This document shows, piece after piece, positions 37,137-56,337 of a DNA stretch of 64,000 bases. The position numbers were made by a program, and so were the translations under genes. How positions within the stretch are numbered: the first letter of the stretch is position 1; each line of letters opens with the position of its first letter. The notes below the pieces were generated by a model, which worked only from the letters and a program-made list of their open reading frames with translations, was not told the DNA's origin and did no database searches. Origin of the DNA: Deltaproteobacteria bacterium (GTDB taxonomy: Bacteria > Desulfobacterota > DSM-4660 > Desulfatiglandales > Desulfatiglandaceae); the NCBI GenBank assembly GCA_022340265.1, contig JAJDOH010000033.1, forward strand, positions 1 to 64,000, in the 5' to 3' direction.

Positions 37137-37172
37137 TAGACTTCCTTAACATTCTGTCGCCGAGGCGAATTG

Positions 37173-40100
37173 ATGCTCAAAATCCTGGGGAAATGGCTTA
37201 AGGTCTATGAAGACGAAATTTCGCTGTTTTTTTGGGTGGTTCTCCTTCTCTTCCTGATCCGTACGTCCAGTATTCTGTTTAACAACTTTGCGGAAACCGC
37301 ATTTCTCAAACGCTACGGCGTTGAATACCTGCCCATCGTCAACGTGGTCAATTCCATTTCCACTTTTTTTATCATGGGATTTTTGACCGGGCTCATGGCG
37401 AAGATTCCGGGCAGCCGCATGCTGGGCAATACCCTTTTGTTCTGCGGGGTGTCCGTCGCAGCCCTTCGCTTTGTGGTTCCCTTAGGGTTTGATCTCATTT
37501 ACCCGGTTCTCTATATTCTGAAAGCGCAATACGAAGTTCTTCTGGCGCTTATTTTCTGGAATCTGGCCAACGACCTTTTCAACACAAGACAGTCCAAGCG
37601 CCTTTTTCCGCTGATTACCGCAGGCGGAGTGGTCGGGGGCATCATCGGCAGTTTTGCCACACCGCCGCTGGCCAAAGCCATCACCATGGACAACCTGATG
37701 TTTGCCTATTTGATTACGACCTCTCTTGGCGCCTTCATGGTGCGACGAATGGGCAAACAGTTTCCCACGTTGCTGGTGTCCGACAAAAAGGGAAAAAAAG
37801 GCGGGAAGAAAACCAATATCGTGCAGGATTTCAAGAACGTTCTGCCGCTCATGAAGAAATCCACCCTTGTTAAAGTTCTGATTCTGTTGACACTCCTGCC
37901 GAACATTGTGATTCCCATCATGAATTACCAGTTTGCCTATTCCGTCAACCAGACATTTGCCACCCAGAACGGCATGCTGAGTTTCTTTGGCTATTTCCGG
38001 GGTTGCATGAATATCGTGAGCCTCATCATTCTGCTTTTTGTGGGCCGGTTGTATGGTCGTTTGGGGCTGCCCGTGGTTTTGATGTTTCACCCCATCAACT
38101 ATATGATCGCGTTTTTGGCGTTTTTGTTGCGATTTGACATTTTTTCCGCCATGTATGCCAGGATTTCCACCAATATTTTACGAACCACCATGAACAATCC
38201 GGCCCGTGCTATTCTCATGGGCCTTTTTCCCGTATCTTACCGGGCCGTGATCCGGCCTTTTTTACGGGGAACCGTGGTCCGTGTGGGCATATTAATCGGG
38301 TCGGGCATTATTATGGTCTCGGAGGGCCTCTATCCTCCCCGGTACCTTTCCATTGCCGCCATGATTTTTGTGGGCGCGTGGATCATGACCACCTTTGTTC
38401 TTAAAAAGAGTTACCCCCGCATTTTACTGGACCTGATCAGCAACAACATGTTGGATCTCAAATCCCTTGAGGAAAAGGATGCCGACAGCGTTTTTGCGGA
38501 CAAGAGCATCCGGAACAGGCTTCTGGAGACCTTTCTGGCCTCGAAAGGGGAAGACTGCCTGTGGCATGCTCGGATACTCAAAGCCCAGAATATCGAAAAC
38601 CTGGATGCTCACATCCTGAGGGTCCTTGATAATAACGATGACAAAACGAAAATAGAATTGCTGGCCATGCTTTCTCCCGAAGCGGGGGACGCCGCCATCG
38701 CTCGCTTAAGGGAATTGGTTGATCCTGAAAAAATGGATCTCACCATTGCCGTGGTCCAAGCCGCCAATCGCCTTTCGGGTGAAAGCGCCCGTGAATTTTG
38801 CGGGGAAGTTTTTGAGACCATCGAAAGCCCCGATGTGAGAGCCTATGCGGTCGTTGGTTTGTACAACGCATCCCCGGGAGATTACGAAGGGGTAATTGAT
38901 GCGTGGTTGAATTCCCGGGAACTGGCAGAAAGGCGCGCCGGCATCATTGCGTCCGGCAAGACCGGACACGAAAGTTATATTCCAAAGTTGAAGGAGATGC
39001 TGTCGGCTTCTGAAAATGAAGATATCATTCAACATCTGTTGGACGCACTTCACAGCCTGAAAATGGATGCACCCAACAGTCTGGTTATGAAATACCTGAC
39101 CCACCCCGCGGAACAGGTTCGTCTGGCTGCGCTCAAAGCCTTTGAACTCAATGACGACGATGCCCTTCGAATGGCCGTCATCCTCATGGATGATGTTTCA
39201 GAGGAAATCCACGATCTGGCAAAAGAAAAGATTCTGAATGCAACACACCAGAATCCCATGGTGCTTGTAGAATCCCTGAACATCCCCAGGCGGCGTGTTC
39301 GCGAAGGCATATTTAGTTTGTTGGAATCATTGAACATCAAAGACCTTGAACTTTATCGTTTTGCACGCTCCCAGCTGGAGGCGTGCTATAATCATCTTTT
39401 GGAGATAGAAGGGGTTAACGACTTTCCTGAAAGCCAGGGAAAGGAACTCTTGTTAAGTCACCTGAACGATAAAATCCAGGTGGAACTCGAAACCATACTT
39501 CGCGTTCTGGCCACGGAGGACCGTACAGGACAGATGCGGATCATCTGGCGCGGTATTTTTTCGTCGGATAAACGGGCAAGATCCAACAGCCTGGAAGCCC
39601 TGGATGATTCCATGGACAAATCCCTTTCCAGTATCATGCTGCCGCTTCTGGAGAGCGAGAATAATAAAACGGCATTGGCGGTGGGGCGGAAAAAATTCAA
39701 GTTACCCCGGTTCGAAGGTGATCAGCGTGCGTTTTGTTCCCATCTTCTGCAAAAGGATGATTGGGTCATCCTGGTTTTGACTTTGTTTTTGCTGCTGGAT
39801 CGTAAAAACGACATTCTGGATGAGGGAATTTTGAAGCATCTGGCCGAATCGGAAAATTCATATGTTCGTCAAATGGCCTTAAAGGTGATGAATGTCCGGA
39901 ATGATGATTCAGACAATATGGAGGAGGGTATGGAAACGGAAATCACAATTCCCGACAAAATCCTGCGGTTGAAGGGGATCAACATATTTGAAGGGCTTTC
40001 CGTGAGCGAACTGGCGGCCATCGCATCGGTAACGGAAGAGCTCGAATGCGCAAAGGATGAATTTGTCATAAAAGAGGGCGAAGCCGGAGAAACCATGTTC

Positions 40101-40394
40101 CTCATTATTAACGGAGCCGTTTCCGTGCTCAAAGGTGTCGGAGTTGAAAATTCTCGTGAGATAGAACTGGCCCGTATTGGCGTCGGCGATTATTTCGGAG
40201 AAATGGCGCTTTTTGAAGATGCCGTGCGTTCGGCTTCCATCAAAGCTTCGGAAGACTCTCGATTCCTGGTACTGCACAAACAGGAGTTCACCGAAATTGT
40301 GCGAGAATATCCACAGATCGCCCTCCACATCTGCAAGGCGCTCAGCGGTCGAATGCGCGACCTCCATGAAAAGCTGCAAAACTATGAAAAATAG
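37173..40394 (+). CDS. Nucleotide-transporter-like membrane domain fused to HEAT repeats and a cyclic-nucleotide-binding domain
   Basis: A 1073 aa protein. The first about 415 residues have about 11-12 membrane helices and resemble the Npt1/Npt2 (ATP/ADP-translocase-like, MFS-fold) family: RTSSILFNNFAETAFLKRYG, ANDLFNTRQSKRLFPLITAG, GGVVGGIIGSFATPP. Residues about 440-910 are alpha-helical repeats of HEAT type (ALHSLKMDAPNSLVMKYLTH). The C-terminal part (about 935-1065) is a cNMP-binding domain with IKEGEAGETMFLIINGAVSV and a phosphate cassette FGEMALFEDAVRSASIKA that keeps the Glu and Arg. I infer a ligand-gated membrane transporter or sensor. Neither nucleotide transport nor cAMP/cGMP binding is shown here. 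Related fusions may occur in other deltaproteobacteria. Confidence 0.8.
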   Translation: MLKILGKWLKVYEDEISLFFWVVLLLFLIRTSSILFNNFAETAFLKRYGVEYLPIVNVVNSISTFFIMGFLTGLMAKIPGSRMLGNTLLFCGVSVAALRFVVPLGFDLIYPVLYILKAQYEVLLALIFWNLANDLFNTRQSKRLFPLITAGGVVGGIIGSFATPPLAKAITMDNLMFAYLITTSLGAFMVRRMGKQFPTLLVSDKKGKKGGKKTNIVQDFKNVLPLMKKSTLVKVLILLTLLPNIVIPIMNYQFAYSVNQTFATQNGMLSFFGYFRGCMNIVSLIILLFVGRLYGRLGLPVVLMFHPINYMIAFLAFLLRFDIFSAMYARISTNILRTTMNNPARAILMGLFPVSYRAVIRPFLRGTVVRVGILIGSGIIMVSEGLYPPRYLSIAAMIFVGAWIMTTFVLKKSYPRILLDLISNNMLDLKSLEEKDADSVFADKSIRNRLLETFLASKGEDCLWHARILKAQNIENLDAHILRVLDNNDDKTKIELLAMLSPEAGDAAIARLRELVDPEKMDLTIAVVQAANRLSGESAREFCGEVFETIESPDVRAYAVVGLYNASPGDYEGVIDAWLNSRELAERRAGIIASGKTGHESYIPKLKEMLSASENEDIIQHLLDALHSLKMDAPNSLVMKYLTHPAEQVRLAALKAFELNDDDALRMAVILMDDVSEEIHDLAKEKILNATHQNPMVLVESLNIPRRRVREGIFSLLESLNIKDLELYRFARSQLEACYNHLLEIEGVNDFPESQGKELLLSHLNDKIQVELETILRVLATEDRTGQMRIIWRGIFSSDKRARSNSLEALDDSMDKSLSSIMLPLLESENNKTALAVGRKKFKLPRFEGDQRAFCSHLLQKDDWVILVLTLFLLLDRKNDILDEGILKHLAESENSYVRQMALKVMNVRNDDSDNMEEGMETEITIPDKILRLKGINIFEGLSVSELAAIASVTEELECAKDEFVIKEGEAGETMFLIINGAVSVLKGVGVENSREIELARIGVGDYFGEMALFEDAVRSASIKASEDSRFLVLHKQEFTEIVREYPQIALHICKALSGRMRDLHEKLQNYEK

Positions 40395-40522: not shown

Positions 40523-41674
40523 ATGCGTCATCTGGATCTTTGTTTGCGCCCGGTCGAAAGCGGTGATGAAAACGGGCGGATGCGAATTAATGTTGATTTC
40601 AGGCGGTCTTACGATGAGGATCTGACATTGTGGTATTCGATTCCTAACGACCAATACCCATATGTTTCCTGTGATCTGATGGATCCGTTTGTTACGGCTG
40701 CCTTATTGAAAGCCATGGAGGACAGGGCGACGCTGCGGGTCCATGGGCCGGTTTCCGCTTCTCTGCTGGACAATCTGGAAGAGTTTCAGCTTATTTTCAG
40801 TACATGGTTTCCAGATAAATACCACCACCCCATTGATATTGTGGCCGATGTGGAAACTGAAGGAACAAGGCGCAACCACAAGGTCATCTTAAGCTTTTCG
40901 GGCGGTGTGGATGGCGCTTTCAGTGCCCTGAATCATGTGGTGAGAAAAGGCCCCATCAAAAGGAAGCTTTTTGACGTGGATGCCATACTGTATATTGAAG
41001 GTTTTGATGTGAACATCCAATACGATAGAGAATGCGGAAATGTCGTTCAAAGAAATCGAAAACTTTTTGCTTCCTATCCCCATTTGACATTTTTAAATGT
41101 CCGAACCAATTTAAAGTATCTCCTTTCCATCAAACGATTCTGGATGAGCCATGCCTGTGTTGTGGCATCCGTCGCGTCCCTCTTCCGCACCATGTGGGGC
41201 GGTTGTCTTTTGGGTAGCAGTCATTCCTACCTTCATCTGCGGCCATGGGGAAGCCATCCCTTGACGGACAGACTTCTTTCCAGTCGCAGCTTTGAAATGT
41301 ATCATGATACGGTCTTTAAACGGATGGAAAAACTGGAAGCGTTGTTTGCATGGCCTGAAGCCCTTGAAAATCTCAAGGTTTGCTGGGAAGGACAATACCG
41401 GTACGATACGCTTCCCGATACCAACTGCTGCCGGTGCGATAAATGTGTACGCACCATGCTGGCGTTCAAAGCCCTGGGTCATGAGATTCCCGGCAGTTTC
41501 GCCGAAGAACTGACCGTCGAAAAAGTGCAGGGACTTAAAAACAAACCTTTTGACTGGTCCAGGCTTATGTTTTTAAATGAAATCTTGGATACAGCAAAGG
41601 AAAGAGGGCTGGAAAAAATGCCTGTTTTTGCAGCCCTTGCGGGCATCGTCGAAGAAAACAGCAAAATGGTATAA
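40523..41674 (+). CDS. PP-loop ATP-pyrophosphatase-like protein with a Cys cluster, function unknown
   Basis: A 383 aa protein. The PP-loop is at residues 124-132 (SFSGGVDGA). A C-terminal cysteine cluster (C302, C303, C305, C308; NCCRCDKCVRTM) resembles zinc or iron-sulfur clusters of QueC-like enzymes, but the spacing differs. The N-terminal 110 residues form a separate domain. Good ribosome binding site AGGGGA seven bases before the ATG. It directly precedes the radical SAM gene. I do not recognise a named family. A tRNA or small-molecule adenylation role would be a guess. Confidence 0.8.
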   Translation: MRHLDLCLRPVESGDENGRMRINVDFRRSYDEDLTLWYSIPNDQYPYVSCDLMDPFVTAALLKAMEDRATLRVHGPVSASLLDNLEEFQLIFSTWFPDKYHHPIDIVADVETEGTRRNHKVILSFSGGVDGAFSALNHVVRKGPIKRKLFDVDAILYIEGFDVNIQYDRECGNVVQRNRKLFASYPHLTFLNVRTNLKYLLSIKRFWMSHACVVASVASLFRTMWGGCLLGSSHSYLHLRPWGSHPLTDRLLSSRSFEMYHDTVFKRMEKLEALFAWPEALENLKVCWEGQYRYDTLPDTNCCRCDKCVRTMLAFKALGHEIPGSFAEELTVEKVQGLKNKPFDWSRLMFLNEILDTAKERGLEKMPVFAALAGIVEENSKMV

Positions 41675-41808
41675 CGGCTCATCGATGATTGTATCAAATA
41701 AATCGTTAAAATGAAGCAGTCAATAAGCCCGTTATAAAGTTTTGGAAGCATGCTCACAATGAAATTGTCGGCATCAAAAATCAGTTAATCCATGGGGATG
41801 ACCAAAAA

Positions 41809-43356
41809 ATGAAAGTCGCCTACATATACCCGCCATTGTTCAAGCCTTTTTATCCCATGGCCACCCGAATTATGACGGAAAATCTTCTTCGCAATAAGAA
41901 TCTTGAAGTCCAGTTCAGCCGTATCCCTGTGAGGACCTATTCCTCGGACAAGGACAAGGTGTTGTACGAGGGTATGATGGAAAAGGCGGTTTCCCGTTTT
42001 TCTCCCAATGTCATTTCCTTCCTGGAACAGAAATACATGGTCTACAATGTTTTTTATGTCTTCATGGCCCATGGATATTATGATGCGTTCATCAAGGAGG
42101 ATTTTGAGGCGGAGCACATCATTTTAACGTGTATCAATTTCTGTGATTTGCTGATTGTAAAGAATCTGCTGGAAACGGACAAGAAGGTTGTACTGGGTGG
42201 TCCGCTGATTAATATCGGACTGTCGCCCGATTTTCTCCGGCAATTCTTGTTTCATATGGGGGTTCAAAAATCGAAACTTCAGGATAATCTCATTATCGTA
42301 TCCGGCAATGTTGATCTTACAACCGATCTTTACCAGATCATCAGGGACTGGAAAGACGGCCGGATTACCCGGAACGACTACGGTACGGTTTACGAATGCC
42401 GCCATGATTTTTTAAAACCGTATTATGGGGGAAAAGCCGACATCCCCGTGCATTTGGGCTTCAACAATTGGTGCTGGTATGGAAAGTGTAAATTCTGCAC
42501 CTACAAGGAATTGCCACGGATGGATTTCTTGAAAGGAATGGAGATTGATGACGCTGTTCTGGCGATCCATGATATCATGCGAGGATTTGATTCCGAACAC
42601 ATCCGGTTTATCGACTCCTATTATCGCCCCCATTCGCCCGTTGTTCAGAAAATCCTTCAACGGATCAGCCAGTACCACATCACGATTTTTACCGGCATAA
42701 CACTTTTAAAGGACAAGCAGTACATCGAATCTATCAACAAATATGTCGACTGTCTGCTCATCGGGCTGGAATCCACTTCCGATTTTACCCTGAAACATGT
42801 ATCCAAAGGGTATCTTTATCAGGACATTGAACAGGCCGTGGAAAACATCATTCAATATCTGGATAGAAGCATATTCCTGGAGATATCGGTTATTCTGGAT
42901 CTTCCCCATCGGGACGCAGAGGACGTTCGTGAAAATTATCGGCGTATCGCGGCCCTGAAAGATCGGTTGGACGAAGCAGGATTTCGCGTGGCGGTGCACA
43001 TGAATATTTTAAGTGTGTTTCCCAATCTGGAGCTTCTTTACACGGAAGATGCCTTGCTCAAAAGATCCTTTGAACCAAACGATATGCCCGTTTCCACCGG
43101 CAAAAACTATCTGATTCATCTGTTGAAACAAGCCGGCATGGACCGGCCCTCTCAGCTGCCGTCCTCAATGGTCCTCCCGGATGAAAACAACGCATATGGC
43201 CTGCATTACGGTTATATCAGTTCAAACGTTCCGGTGGTTCGGCATGATGTTAATGGCAAAATATTGCTTTCGGATCTCGAAATAATGGAAGAGGATGTTA
43301 TGAAAAAAATCCTTACGCGAAAAAGCCGCTTTGGGAGCACAATAAAAAAATCGTAA
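41809..43356 (+). CDS. Radical SAM protein with B12-binding-like N-terminal domain, function unknown
   Basis: A 515 aa protein. The N-terminal 195 residues (MKVAYIYPPLFKPFYP ... VVLGGPLI) look like a cobalamin-binding-type Rossmann domain, although the usual DxHxxG B12-ligand motif is not seen. The radical SAM core has NNWCWYGKCKFCTYKE with cysteines 222, 227 and 230, spacing C-x4-C-x2-C instead of the more common C-x3-C-x2-C. Further core motifs: IRFIDSYYRP and LLIGLESTSDFTLKHVSKG. Gene order suggests a functional link with the preceding PP-loop protein; the reaction is unknown. Confidence 0.83.
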   Translation: MKVAYIYPPLFKPFYPMATRIMTENLLRNKNLEVQFSRIPVRTYSSDKDKVLYEGMMEKAVSRFSPNVISFLEQKYMVYNVFYVFMAHGYYDAFIKEDFEAEHIILTCINFCDLLIVKNLLETDKKVVLGGPLINIGLSPDFLRQFLFHMGVQKSKLQDNLIIVSGNVDLTTDLYQIIRDWKDGRITRNDYGTVYECRHDFLKPYYGGKADIPVHLGFNNWCWYGKCKFCTYKELPRMDFLKGMEIDDAVLAIHDIMRGFDSEHIRFIDSYYRPHSPVVQKILQRISQYHITIFTGITLLKDKQYIESINKYVDCLLIGLESTSDFTLKHVSKGYLYQDIEQAVENIIQYLDRSIFLEISVILDLPHRDAEDVRENYRRIAALKDRLDEAGFRVAVHMNILSVFPNLELLYTEDALLKRSFEPNDMPVSTGKNYLIHLLKQAGMDRPSQLPSSMVLPDENNAYGLHYGYISSNVPVVRHDVNGKILLSDLEIMEEDVMKKILTRKSRFGSTIKKS

Positions 43357-43398: not shown

Positions 43399-43433
43399 AA
43401 AAAGCACCGGCTTAAATGGGCCGATGCTTTTTT
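43399..43433. terminator. Bidirectional terminator between convergent genes
   Basis: AAAAAGCACCGGC and GCCGATGCTTTTTT arms with one mismatch and an 8-base loop. A-run and T-run on either side allow use from both strands. It separates the radical SAM gene (+) from iorB (-). Confidence 0.75.
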
Positions 43434-54119: not shown

Positions 54120-55526
54120 CTACTGAACTCTGGGCAAGACTTGAGGAGGCTTGTTTCTGTCGCCGGTGGCATTGGGATAATCGGGGGCTTTAAAGGCCTT
54201 TTTATTGTTTTTGATGAGATCCCGGGAAAGTTTCATGAATTGGTTGTATCGGCCCTTGCACTCGAAAAAGCCGTGCCACCAAGCGTAATCAGGCGCCATC
54301 ATGGCGGTTCCCATCCTTGCCCTTCGCCCTTCGTGATGCCACAGGTAGTAGTACTCCAGCTCCGGCGCTTCATCAAAGAAGGGGGTTTTGACGCAAAGCC
54401 CTTTTGCATAGAGCTCGTCCAACACCTTCTTCGCGGGCTTGAAATAGACGTCATTGTATTCCTGGACCGTTTTATCAAGCTGAGCATAGTGGTTGTCCAC
54501 CCACGTCTTGCTGTGGCATTGCATGCAGATGGCTTTCATCTTATCCCTTTCCGTTTCCCAATTGGTCTTGGCCGGAAAGGGCTTGAAATCCTGGGGTCTG
54601 ACGGTGAGTGGGGCCTGAAGTTCCCAGGAAAGCCGTTCCGTCACGTCATGGGTCGTCAGGACCGGTCCGGCCCCTGACATATGGCAGGAAGCACAGACAG
54701 GGGCGCGGTAATCCACTCCGGCGGTCCAGGTCCCGGGAGCGGCCGTCCAGTTGTAATCGTCTCCGTGGGCGGTATAGATATCCCCGTGTTTGGATTCCAT
54801 ATAGATTTCGATCTGGGGATGATCCGGCCCCAGATGACACTGTCCGCAGGCCTCCGGTTTCCTCGCTTCCATGACCGAAAACAGATGCCGGGTATGACAG
54901 CTGGAACAGGATCCCCGGCTTCCGTCCGGATTGATCCTTCCCACCCCCACGCTGGGCCAGGTTTCGGGCGTCAATACACCGTCTTTTAACTTGACGATGG
55001 TGCCGTGACAATGGTAGCAGCCGGTTGTCCTTTCATTGCCGCTGTTCATTCCGTCGTTGAGCCAGGGATCGATTTTCCAGATAATCTCCAGGGTATTGGC
55101 ATGTTTGCTTCCGCTGTACTGTTTGGCCTCATCCGGATGACAGCGGGAGCAGTCCTTGGGGGAAACCACGGCCGAAACAGGGACTTTGTATTCCTTGGTT
55201 CCATATCTTTGGTCGGAACGTTCGTACTGCTTGTAATGTTCCTTGCTTACATCCGGGTCGAATTCCTCCGCCTTGTGACAGTCATAACAGGTGATGTTTG
55301 CCGAGGCGTGGCGGCTGTGGGCCCAATCGGTGAAAATGCCGGGGTTTTCCCGTTTGTGGCATTCAATGCAGGCCACGGCCTCCTTGGGCATGCTCCTTTC
55401 GATACGGAATTCTTTGGATTTGGGTTCATTTTGGGCGGTCTGGGCATCGGCCGGGATGGTAGCGGCCATTGTGAGTCCTATTCCGCTACAAATCAGGGCA
55501 ACCAATATTTGCATTTTCTTGATCAT
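54120..55526 (-). CDS. Octaheme c-type cytochrome, hydroxylamine-oxidoreductase-like
   Basis: A 468 aa periplasmic protein with a signal peptide and eight CxxCH heme motifs: CIECH, CYDCH, CSRCH, CYHCH, CSSCH, CGQCH, CASCH and CMQCH. The C-terminal helical part has EYYYLWHHEGRRARMG and PDYAWWHGFFECKGRYNQF, which fits the HAO family. In other anaerobes HAO-like enzymes of this kind act as nitrite or hydroxylamine reductases rather than oxidases. Direction cannot be set from sequence. AAGGAGG is six bases before the ATG. It follows the NrfH-type gene, which would supply electrons from quinol. Confidence 0.88.
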   Translation of the reverse strand: MIKKMQILVALICSGIGLTMAATIPADAQTAQNEPKSKEFRIERSMPKEAVACIECHKRENPGIFTDWAHSRHASANITCYDCHKAEEFDPDVSKEHYKQYERSDQRYGTKEYKVPVSAVVSPKDCSRCHPDEAKQYSGSKHANTLEIIWKIDPWLNDGMNSGNERTTGCYHCHGTIVKLKDGVLTPETWPSVGVGRINPDGSRGSCSSCHTRHLFSVMEARKPEACGQCHLGPDHPQIEIYMESKHGDIYTAHGDDYNWTAAPGTWTAGVDYRAPVCASCHMSGAGPVLTTHDVTERLSWELQAPLTVRPQDFKPFPAKTNWETERDKMKAICMQCHSKTWVDNHYAQLDKTVQEYNDVYFKPAKKVLDELYAKGLCVKTPFFDEAPELEYYYLWHHEGRRARMGTAMMAPDYAWWHGFFECKGRYNQFMKLSRDLIKNNKKAFKAPDYPNATGDRNKPPQVLPRVQ

Positions 55527-55558
55527 GAAAAGCCTCCTTTTCCCTTAAGGTCTCCCCC

Positions 55559-56110
55559 TCAGAGTCCCTGGCCCGTGTAGGGTTCACGGAACTGCTTGTA
55601 CTGATACAATTCTCTCTTGTTGTGAACCAGATTCTTGTGACAATCCACGCATCTTTTTTCATACCCCGGCCTGGCGTAAATCACCGAACGGTGGGCCAGC
55701 ATGGCCCCCCTTTTGTCCGGCAGGTAGAGGATGTTGCGATGACATTTTTGGCATTGCTCGTTCCGGAAACCGGCGTAGGCCTGTTGCCGCGCTCTTTCGT
55801 GGTCGTATGCTCCTCCCGCGAAATGTATGACGATATCCTTGATGCCGTGCGCCGTCTTGGCGTAGAAGAAATCAAAGGTATCCTGGGGGGCGGGCAGGTG
55901 GCAGTCCATGCAGTCCGCCACGAAACCCTGGGGGTTGTTGACATGGGTGGATGTCTTCCAGCTATTATAAGCGAATTGGATTTCGTGGCAGGAAGAACAG
56001 AACTGCGGGGTGGAGGTCCGGACCATGGTGAAGTAGGTCATGCTGAACAGCGGGAAGGCAATAACGATGCCGATGGCGATGAAAATAGTCCACTTGAAGC
56101 GAGCTTTCAT
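55559..56110 (-). CDS. Tetraheme cytochrome of the NapC/NirT/NrfH family
   Basis: A 183 aa membrane-anchored cytochrome. One N-terminal helix (KWTIFIAIGIVIAFPLFSM), then four CxxCH motifs: CSSCH, CMDCH, CQKCH and CVDCH. The length fits NrfH/NapC-type quinol dehydrogenases that feed electrons to periplasmic reductases. The first gene of the pair with the octaheme protein; 32 bases between them. The ATG at 56110 is preferred over an in-frame GTG two codons earlier. Confidence 0.92.
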   Translation of the reverse strand: MKARFKWTIFIAIGIVIAFPLFSMTYFTMVRTSTPQFCSSCHEIQFAYNSWKTSTHVNNPQGFVADCMDCHLPAPQDTFDFFYAKTAHGIKDIVIHFAGGAYDHERARQQAYAGFRNEQCQKCHRNILYLPDKRGAMLAHRSVIYARPGYEKRCVDCHKNLVHNKRELYQYKQFREPYTGQGL

Positions 56111-56337
56111 GTTCACCCCCGGTAGCCGGTAGCGGCAGTAACGACGTGTTGCCGGCGTGATACGCCGCGAAATGCTGCATTACGAAAAGCTGTTGCAGTT
56201 GGGGCTGCTTCCGCGCTTCTGCGAGAGTCAGATAGCTAAAAAAACATCGATAATCTTAGTACAACTTAGCTTTTTGGATGCGAACGTGTCAAGAAGAAAG
56301 GCAAACTCGAAGACCCTATACAGCAGGCATTATTATC

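Follow-up and report, generated by a model that had tools for sequence, protein, structure and literature searches.

The window analyzed here is a stretch of 64,000 nucleotides (nt) at the start of contig JAJDOH010000033.1, from a deltaproteobacterial genome (G000) of the family Desulfatiglandaceae in the phylum Desulfobacterota. An earlier sequence-only reading had drawn attention to two adjacent genes on its forward strand, and both open reading frames (ORFs) were found where that reading placed them. The first, P1 (positions 40523-41674, 383 residues), encodes a PP-loop ATP pyrophosphatase that belongs to no named family and has a QueC-like metal site. The second, P2 (41809-43356, 515 residues), lies 134 nt downstream on the same strand and encodes a radical S-adenosylmethionine (SAM) enzyme with a predicted cobalamin-type, Rossmann-like N-terminal domain. 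Both are real genes under purifying selection: orthologs were 91-93% identical in G003 and 81-84% identical in G002, with dN/dS values of 0.13 (P1) and 0.17 (P2) in the first comparison (dS 0.26) and 0.06 and 0.07 in the second (dS near saturation).

The two proteins and their motifs

The PP-loop of P1 reads SGGVD (residues 126-130, positions 40898-40912, forward strand) and is followed by G131 rather than the usual Ser; S126, G128 and D130 were invariant in 21 relatives. Further along the chain, four Cys residues, also invariant in these relatives, form the site C287-x14-C302-x2-C305-x2-C308 (41381-41446), which hhalign paired with the zinc motif of QueC. The strings SFSGGVDGA and CCRCDKC, which the sequence-only reading had named, are present in P1. 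The Cys residues come in the same order as in the zinc site of QueC, whereas the first spacer is 14 residues long versus the C(x)8CxxCxxC given for QueC in PMC13329287. In QueC from related genomes the site is C-x9-C-x2-C-x2-C, and the x9 spacing was also present in a second group of P1 relatives, referred to below as cluster-type (P1 and its closest counterparts being window-type). Since P1 reads SGGVDG, it lacks the SGGxDS loop of QueC (PF06508); the genome encodes its true QueC elsewhere (C76:81969-82616).

P1 had no family match at E<=1 in Pfam, NCBIfam or PDB sequences. This includes PF06508, which was matched weakly by 6 of the 21 relatives (best E 0.0021), as well as the QueC and thiolation families that the sequence-only reading had proposed for hidden Markov model searches in Pfam and NCBIfam. 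Weak matches to DUF6395 (PF19932) came from 7 of the 21 relatives, the best at E 0.012, and no paper was found on the term DUF6395. The signature of WbpG-type N-sugar amidotransferases, SGGxDSxY with CxxC(x)6CxC according to PMC13329287, differs from P1, which carries SGGVDG and a single C-x14-CxxCxxC and has no NCBIfam match. An anti-phage role of the QatC/Cap9 kind was considered and rejected: PADLOC returned no match, and the QatC model reached at best E 0.026 in 3 of 21 relatives and did not match P1. A P1-family profile searched against PDB sequences ranked GMP synthase first (E 0.11) and QueC at E 1.9, with BAK proteins between them, and was counted as giving no result. Judged by sequence, P1 is a member of an unnamed, distantly QueC-like PP-loop family.

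P2 matched the radical SAM domain PF04055 with 34.3 bits (cut-off 29.5), and no other Pfam domain at E<=0.01. Its cluster motif is the variant Cx4Cx2C (CWYGKCKFC, residues 222-230, C222-x4-C227-x2-C230, positions 42472-42498, forward strand), with the three Cys invariant across 10 aligned rows; neither the canonical CxxxCxxC nor the cobalamin-ligand motif DxHxxG was found in P2. NCBIfam models of B12-type radical SAM enzymes scored far below their curated cut-offs (TIGR04013, 28 of 251 bits; TIGR04072, 25.3 of 360 bits). In a structure model of moderate quality (pTM 0.64, mean pLDDT 62), a Rossmann-like N-terminal domain is joined to a radical SAM barrel. The best match was MgmA (Z 13.9, root-mean-square deviation 3.8, 300 aligned residues covering most of the chain), nearly tied with OxsB (Z 13.2), CysS (13.1) and AprD4 (12.7). 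By this model, P2 folds like the cobalamin-type radical SAM enzymes, and its binding of cobalamin is only predicted; AprD4 retains the cobalamin-type domain without the cofactor. Thus neither P1 nor P2 could be placed in a named family by comparison with Pfam, NCBIfam, PDB and PADLOC, as had been claimed.

The Cx4Cx2C motif and the missing B12 ligand had been described as unusual. Both features are present, and both have precedents: the cobalamin-dependent C-methyltransferase GenD1 is reported to have Cx4Cx2C (PMC4340712), and Mmp10 to bind B12 without DXHXXG (PMC8828468). In addition, CYWGKCVFC occurs in a further large radical SAM protein encoded by the window's genome (L196, G000:C142:35900-37411). 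Because of these cases, the two features are not evidence against the cobalamin type. L195 also carries a Cx4Cx2C motif. Two other ideas about P2 were dropped. MiaB and RimO are among the high-ranking structural matches, but PF04055 is the only Pfam domain of P2; and the single in-frame TGA in the G024 ortholog, examined as a potential selenocysteine codon, is an ordinary stop near the C-terminus.

Conserved neighborhood and distribution

Directly upstream of P1 lies a gene (37170-40394, forward strand) encoding, according to Pfam, a TLC/ATP-ADP-translocase-like membrane domain, HEAT repeats and a cyclic nucleotide (cNMP)-binding domain. This gene is a conserved neighbor of the P1 family. Among 22 loci read, comprising 12 with window-type P1 and 10 genomes with a cluster-type PP-loop gene, it shared the stretch of the PP-loop gene in 18. 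It directly adjoined window-type P1 in all 10 loci with a readable upstream flank (the flank was cut in 2 of 12) and shared the stretch of the cluster-type gene in 8 of 10 genomes. Of these 10 genomes, 9 also had RimK-like and/or GshB-like ATP-grasp genes in the stretch, and 8 had a match to GNAT or a GNAT fusion. One relative, G067 (L088), has the contiguous run GshB, RimK, PhpK-like radical SAM, GNAT, window-type P1 and TLC gene. The genome of the window itself has RimK, GshB, PhpK-like radical SAM, SBP5/Opp oligopeptide transporter, ATP-grasp_3 and N-formylglutamate-amidohydrolase-like (FGase) genes on contig C237, together with a cut ORF resembling an FGE-sulfatase-like protein, and the GNAT gene is on C306.

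A GshB ortholog was detected in 29 of the 46 genomes of the window's GTDB family. Every one of the 14 genomes with a P1-family gene is among them, as is every one of the 10 with a strong P2; this co-occurrence gave Fisher p values, not corrected for kinship, of 0.0005 (P1 family) and 0.0075 (P2). The conserved partners of P1 are the upstream TLC gene and the ATP-grasp and GNAT genes, which the sequence-only reading had not linked to it, and its view of the P1-P2 pair as the conserved unit does not hold. Its proposal of an undescribed pathway fared better, in that P1 belongs to a conserved and apparently undescribed gene set; that set, however, extends beyond P1 and P2, which together are not its conserved core. 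No description of the P1-family neighborhood was found in the literature searched, which covered few subscription papers; both neighborhood and family are apparently new to that literature, although the enzymes belong to known superfamilies.

P1-family genes were present in 14 of the 46 family genomes; a class-level search of 85 genomes returned the same 14. A sample of 395 genomes from the phylum contained 12 carriers, 3 from the window's family and 9 from others. In one of the loci (L083:7893-10161, G240), two P1-family PP-loop genes stand side by side without a TLC gene. Window-type P1 occurred in 12 of the 46 genomes and strong P2 in 10 (11 places), with only weak, generic P2 matches in four further genomes. 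Outside the family, P2 yielded one partial match (4.7e-9) in the phylum sample. A scan of GTDB contigs gave nine P2 loci, 55-91% identical, all named Desulfobacteraceae, Desulfobacterales or deltaproteobacteria, and no plasmid relatives of P2 were found. These searches place P2 in a single GTDB family and mark it as lineage-specific. In G067, a diverged second copy of P2 (L038:6521-10174) follows split methylmalonyl-CoA mutase genes at a distance of 11 nt.

The gene following window-type P1 could be read in 8 of 12 genomes. In six of these, from three genera (G000, G002, G003, G019, G024 and G062), it was P2, whereas a GNAT gene took this place in G033 and G067. The gap between P1 and P2 was 20-28 nt in G002, G003 and G062, and 285 nt in G024. 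Window-type P1 and P2 co-occurred in 8 genomes (Fisher p 7e-5; p 0.003 at genus level). Conserved pairing was thus observed, but within one GTDB family, and in four of the five loci where P2 is not next to P1 it lies near methylmalonyl-CoA genes.

The radical SAM component of the wider cluster varies. In 9 of the 46 genomes (G025, G008, G068, G035, G031, G018, G069, G014 and G010) it is fused to GNAT (at least 52% identity over the radical SAM part), whereas other family genomes have a PhpK-like radical SAM gene and a separate GNAT gene. Eight of the fusion genomes are among the 29 with GshB; G069 has no GshB, and G029, with the GNAT part only, was not counted. Within this set, the fusion genomes contained neither window-type P1 (0 of 8 versus 12 of 21, p 0.009) nor P2 (0 of 8 versus 10 of 21, p 0.027), kinship again not being corrected. 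The P2 family was related by hhalign to both the fusions (E 5.6e-7) and PhpK-like proteins (E 1.9e-6), while hmmsearch placed PhpK-like proteins above the fusions. Because these scores show no clear preference and the motif is also present in L195 and L196, the idea that the fusion motif CYWGKCTFC, also of the Cx4Cx2C form, specially ties P2 to the cluster was dropped; L196 is 29% identical to the radical SAM part of the fusion. Two further proteins aligned to the fusions (L011:4168-6159 and L076:3670-5571) lack the cysteine motif entirely; their radical SAM part appears degenerate and their GNAT part is kept.

In a tree, window-type P1 was separated from the cluster type (100/99) and grouped with PP-loop proteins of Gloeothece, Azospirillum, G174 and G255b. 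Its identity was 33-36% to PP-loop proteins of polysaccharide loci versus 25-31% to the cluster type. Window-type P1 thus probably derives from a different branch than does the cluster-type protein, whose gene occupies an equivalent position close to the TLC gene in other genomes. In five of six plasmid regions read, the P1 relative had a polysaccharide pyruvyl transferase gene beside it or at most two genes away. One Gemmobacter plasmid region (L152:5900-10414) has pyruvyl transferase and PP-loop genes followed by ATP-grasp and GNAT genes, an arrangement that echoes the Desulfobacterota set.

Two other features of the window were noted. A terminator-like hairpin with a T run (43408-43423, forward strand) lies 52 nt past P2, a weak signal given that 9 such patterns were found versus a shuffle mean of 8.7; none was listed in either gap between the TLC gene, P1 and P2. 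At 54120-56116, neighboring ORFs with 8 and 4 CxxCH heme motifs resemble a multiheme cytochrome and a membrane tetraheme partner.

Proposed pathway and competing explanations

The reading we favor, at a probability of roughly 45%, is that P1 is a zinc-type, QueC-like PP-loop enzyme of a peptide-like pathway in Desulfobacterota, to which P2 is a lineage-specific addition. The conserved core would comprise the TLC/HEAT/cNMP transporter-like protein, the GNAT acetyltransferase and two kinds of ATP-grasp ligase, RimK-like and GshB-like; radical SAM, oligopeptide transport and N-formylglutamate-amidohydrolase-like genes would be accessories. In this scheme, the ATP-grasp ligases would join amino acids and GNAT would cap an amine; P1 would adenylate a carboxylate (or amide) of the small peptide-like molecule, and ammonia would displace AMP to give an amide or amidine. 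If the ligases do build the product, a ribosomal precursor gene is not needed. P2 may act on an unreactive carbon, by alkylation or another modification, in the product itself or in a building block such as an acyl unit; its membership in the pathway is less sure than that of P1. Sequences, motifs, gene neighborhoods and co-occurrence are what was observed, and the chemistry, the metal, the product and the involvement of P2 are inferred from them. A broader version, offered still more tentatively, has P1 as the founder of an unnamed zinc PP-loop family that makes an amide or amidine in an undescribed, ATP-grasp-built pathway, in which cobalamin-type radical SAM enzymes (P2, PhpK-like or radical SAM-GNAT fusion) would modify carbon or phosphorus centers and the TLC/HEAT/cNMP protein would move or sense the product.

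Several findings weigh against the peptide-like pathway. The link of P1 to QueC is a short motif match, 30 columns around the Cys site with an hhalign E value of 0.0011 and a probability of 20%, and the structure model of P1, built from four sequences, was poor (pLDDT 50). By its tree position, window-type P1 is no simple ortholog of the cluster-type protein, and its substrate may be different. A P1-family gene is missing from 15 of the 29 family genomes that carry GshB. ATP-grasp_3 was found in 15 of the 395 phylum-sample genomes, 7 of them outside the family, and none of these 7 is among the 9 outside carriers of a P1-family gene; the accessory module is therefore separable, and ATP-grasp_3 was abandoned as a phylum-wide signature of the pathway. 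The GshB-like protein passed one glutathione synthase model (NF003573, 287.9 versus 272 bits) and failed another (266.8 versus a cut-off of 299.05). The adjacency of P1 and P2 is partly ordinary synteny, as indolepyruvate oxidoreductase genes past P2 are also conserved in G002 and G019. P2 also stands apart from P1 in five places, of which one (G033) is cut and four are near methylmalonyl-CoA epimerase or mutase genes.

These last two points are the basis of the strongest alternative, namely that P1 and P2 are functionally unrelated, P2 being a cobalamin-type radical SAM enzyme of methylmalonyl-CoA or acyl-CoA metabolism that stays next to P1 by inherited synteny. Directly upstream of P2 we found methylmalonyl-CoA epimerase in G015 and G067 (C8), mutase subunit genes in G067 (C158) and acyl-CoA dehydrogenase in G021, where the epimerase is approximately 3 kb away; the synteny shared by G000, G002 and G019 extends past P2. 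However, such independence agrees poorly with the co-occurrence of window-type P1 and P2 in 8 genomes and with the short gaps between them in three relatives, and we regard it as a serious but somewhat improbable explanation.

It is also possible, though we consider it unlikely, that P1 is a glycan-modifying enzyme, carrying out sugar amidation or amidination in the manner of WbpG, that was recruited beside a transporter-like gene. The nearest relatives outside the family (two in Gloeothece, 36 and 34% identical, and one in Azospirillum, 33%) adjoin a polysaccharide pyruvyl transferase gene, in Gloeothece amid glycosyltransferases; such a gene also adjoins the Gemmobacter relative and lies within two genes of the Priestia one. 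The tree joins window-type P1 to these glycan-locus proteins and to G255b, whose neighbors read as glycan-like. On the other hand, no glycan genes were noticed beside P1 in the window or in the relatives read, and P1 of G067 sits within the ATP-grasp/GNAT cluster. A glutathione-like thiol pathway, in which GshB and RimK would make a gamma-glutamyl tripeptide decorated by the other enzymes, seems very unlikely: the GshB-like proteins of the window's genome and G255 exceed the NF003573 cut-off, but that of G342 does not, and all three proteins tested fail TIGR01380. That P1 is a thiolating enzyme similar to TtcA, LarE or ThiI, as its Cys-rich site and PP-loop might suggest, is highly improbable, given that its Cys residues follow the QueC zinc order rather than the three-cysteine set of LarE and that no thiolation family was matched in Pfam or NCBIfam.

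The P1-P2 pair alone is the wrong unit to study. An unannotated PP-loop family is now tied to a conserved neighborhood in several families of anaerobic Desulfobacterota; if the favored reading is true, it would reveal a modified peptide-like metabolite that is new, along with a new role for the QueC-type active site.

Comparison with known systems

Synthesis of N-acetylglutaminylglutamine amide combines GNAT, a RimK-like ATP-grasp ligase and an amide-forming PP-loop enzyme, the same types of activity as those proposed here. Based on this analogy, P1 is expected to use ATP for activating a carboxylate or amide, which would then react with ammonia, and it probably amidates a small N-acylated peptide-like product. 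The systems differ in that GNAT is here separate or fused to radical SAM, a GshB-like ligase is added, and the PP-loop enzyme is of the QueC rather than the asparagine-synthetase type; the RimK relative of G016 scored 36.2 bits against the N-acetylglutaminylglutamine synthetase model TIGR03103 (cut-off 569).

With the QueC family of zinc PP-loop enzymes, P1 shares an SGGxD loop followed, in the same order, by C-xn-CxxCxxC near the C-terminus. It differs in the SGGVDG sequence, the x14 spacing and an additional N-terminal region of approximately 110 residues, and none of the QueC signatures YxQxHxxE, VPxRN and YPDC is present in P1. The likeness of the P1 family to DUF6395 is weak and limited to the 7 of 21 relatives mentioned, P1 itself having no match. 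P2 has in common with cobalamin-type radical SAM enzymes (MgmA, OxsB, CysS, GenD1 and AprD4) the predicted Rossmann-like N-terminal domain joined to a radical SAM barrel, although its scores of 25-28 bits are well below the family-model cut-offs of 251-360. With GenD1 it also shares the Cx4Cx2C motif, as described in PMC4340712.

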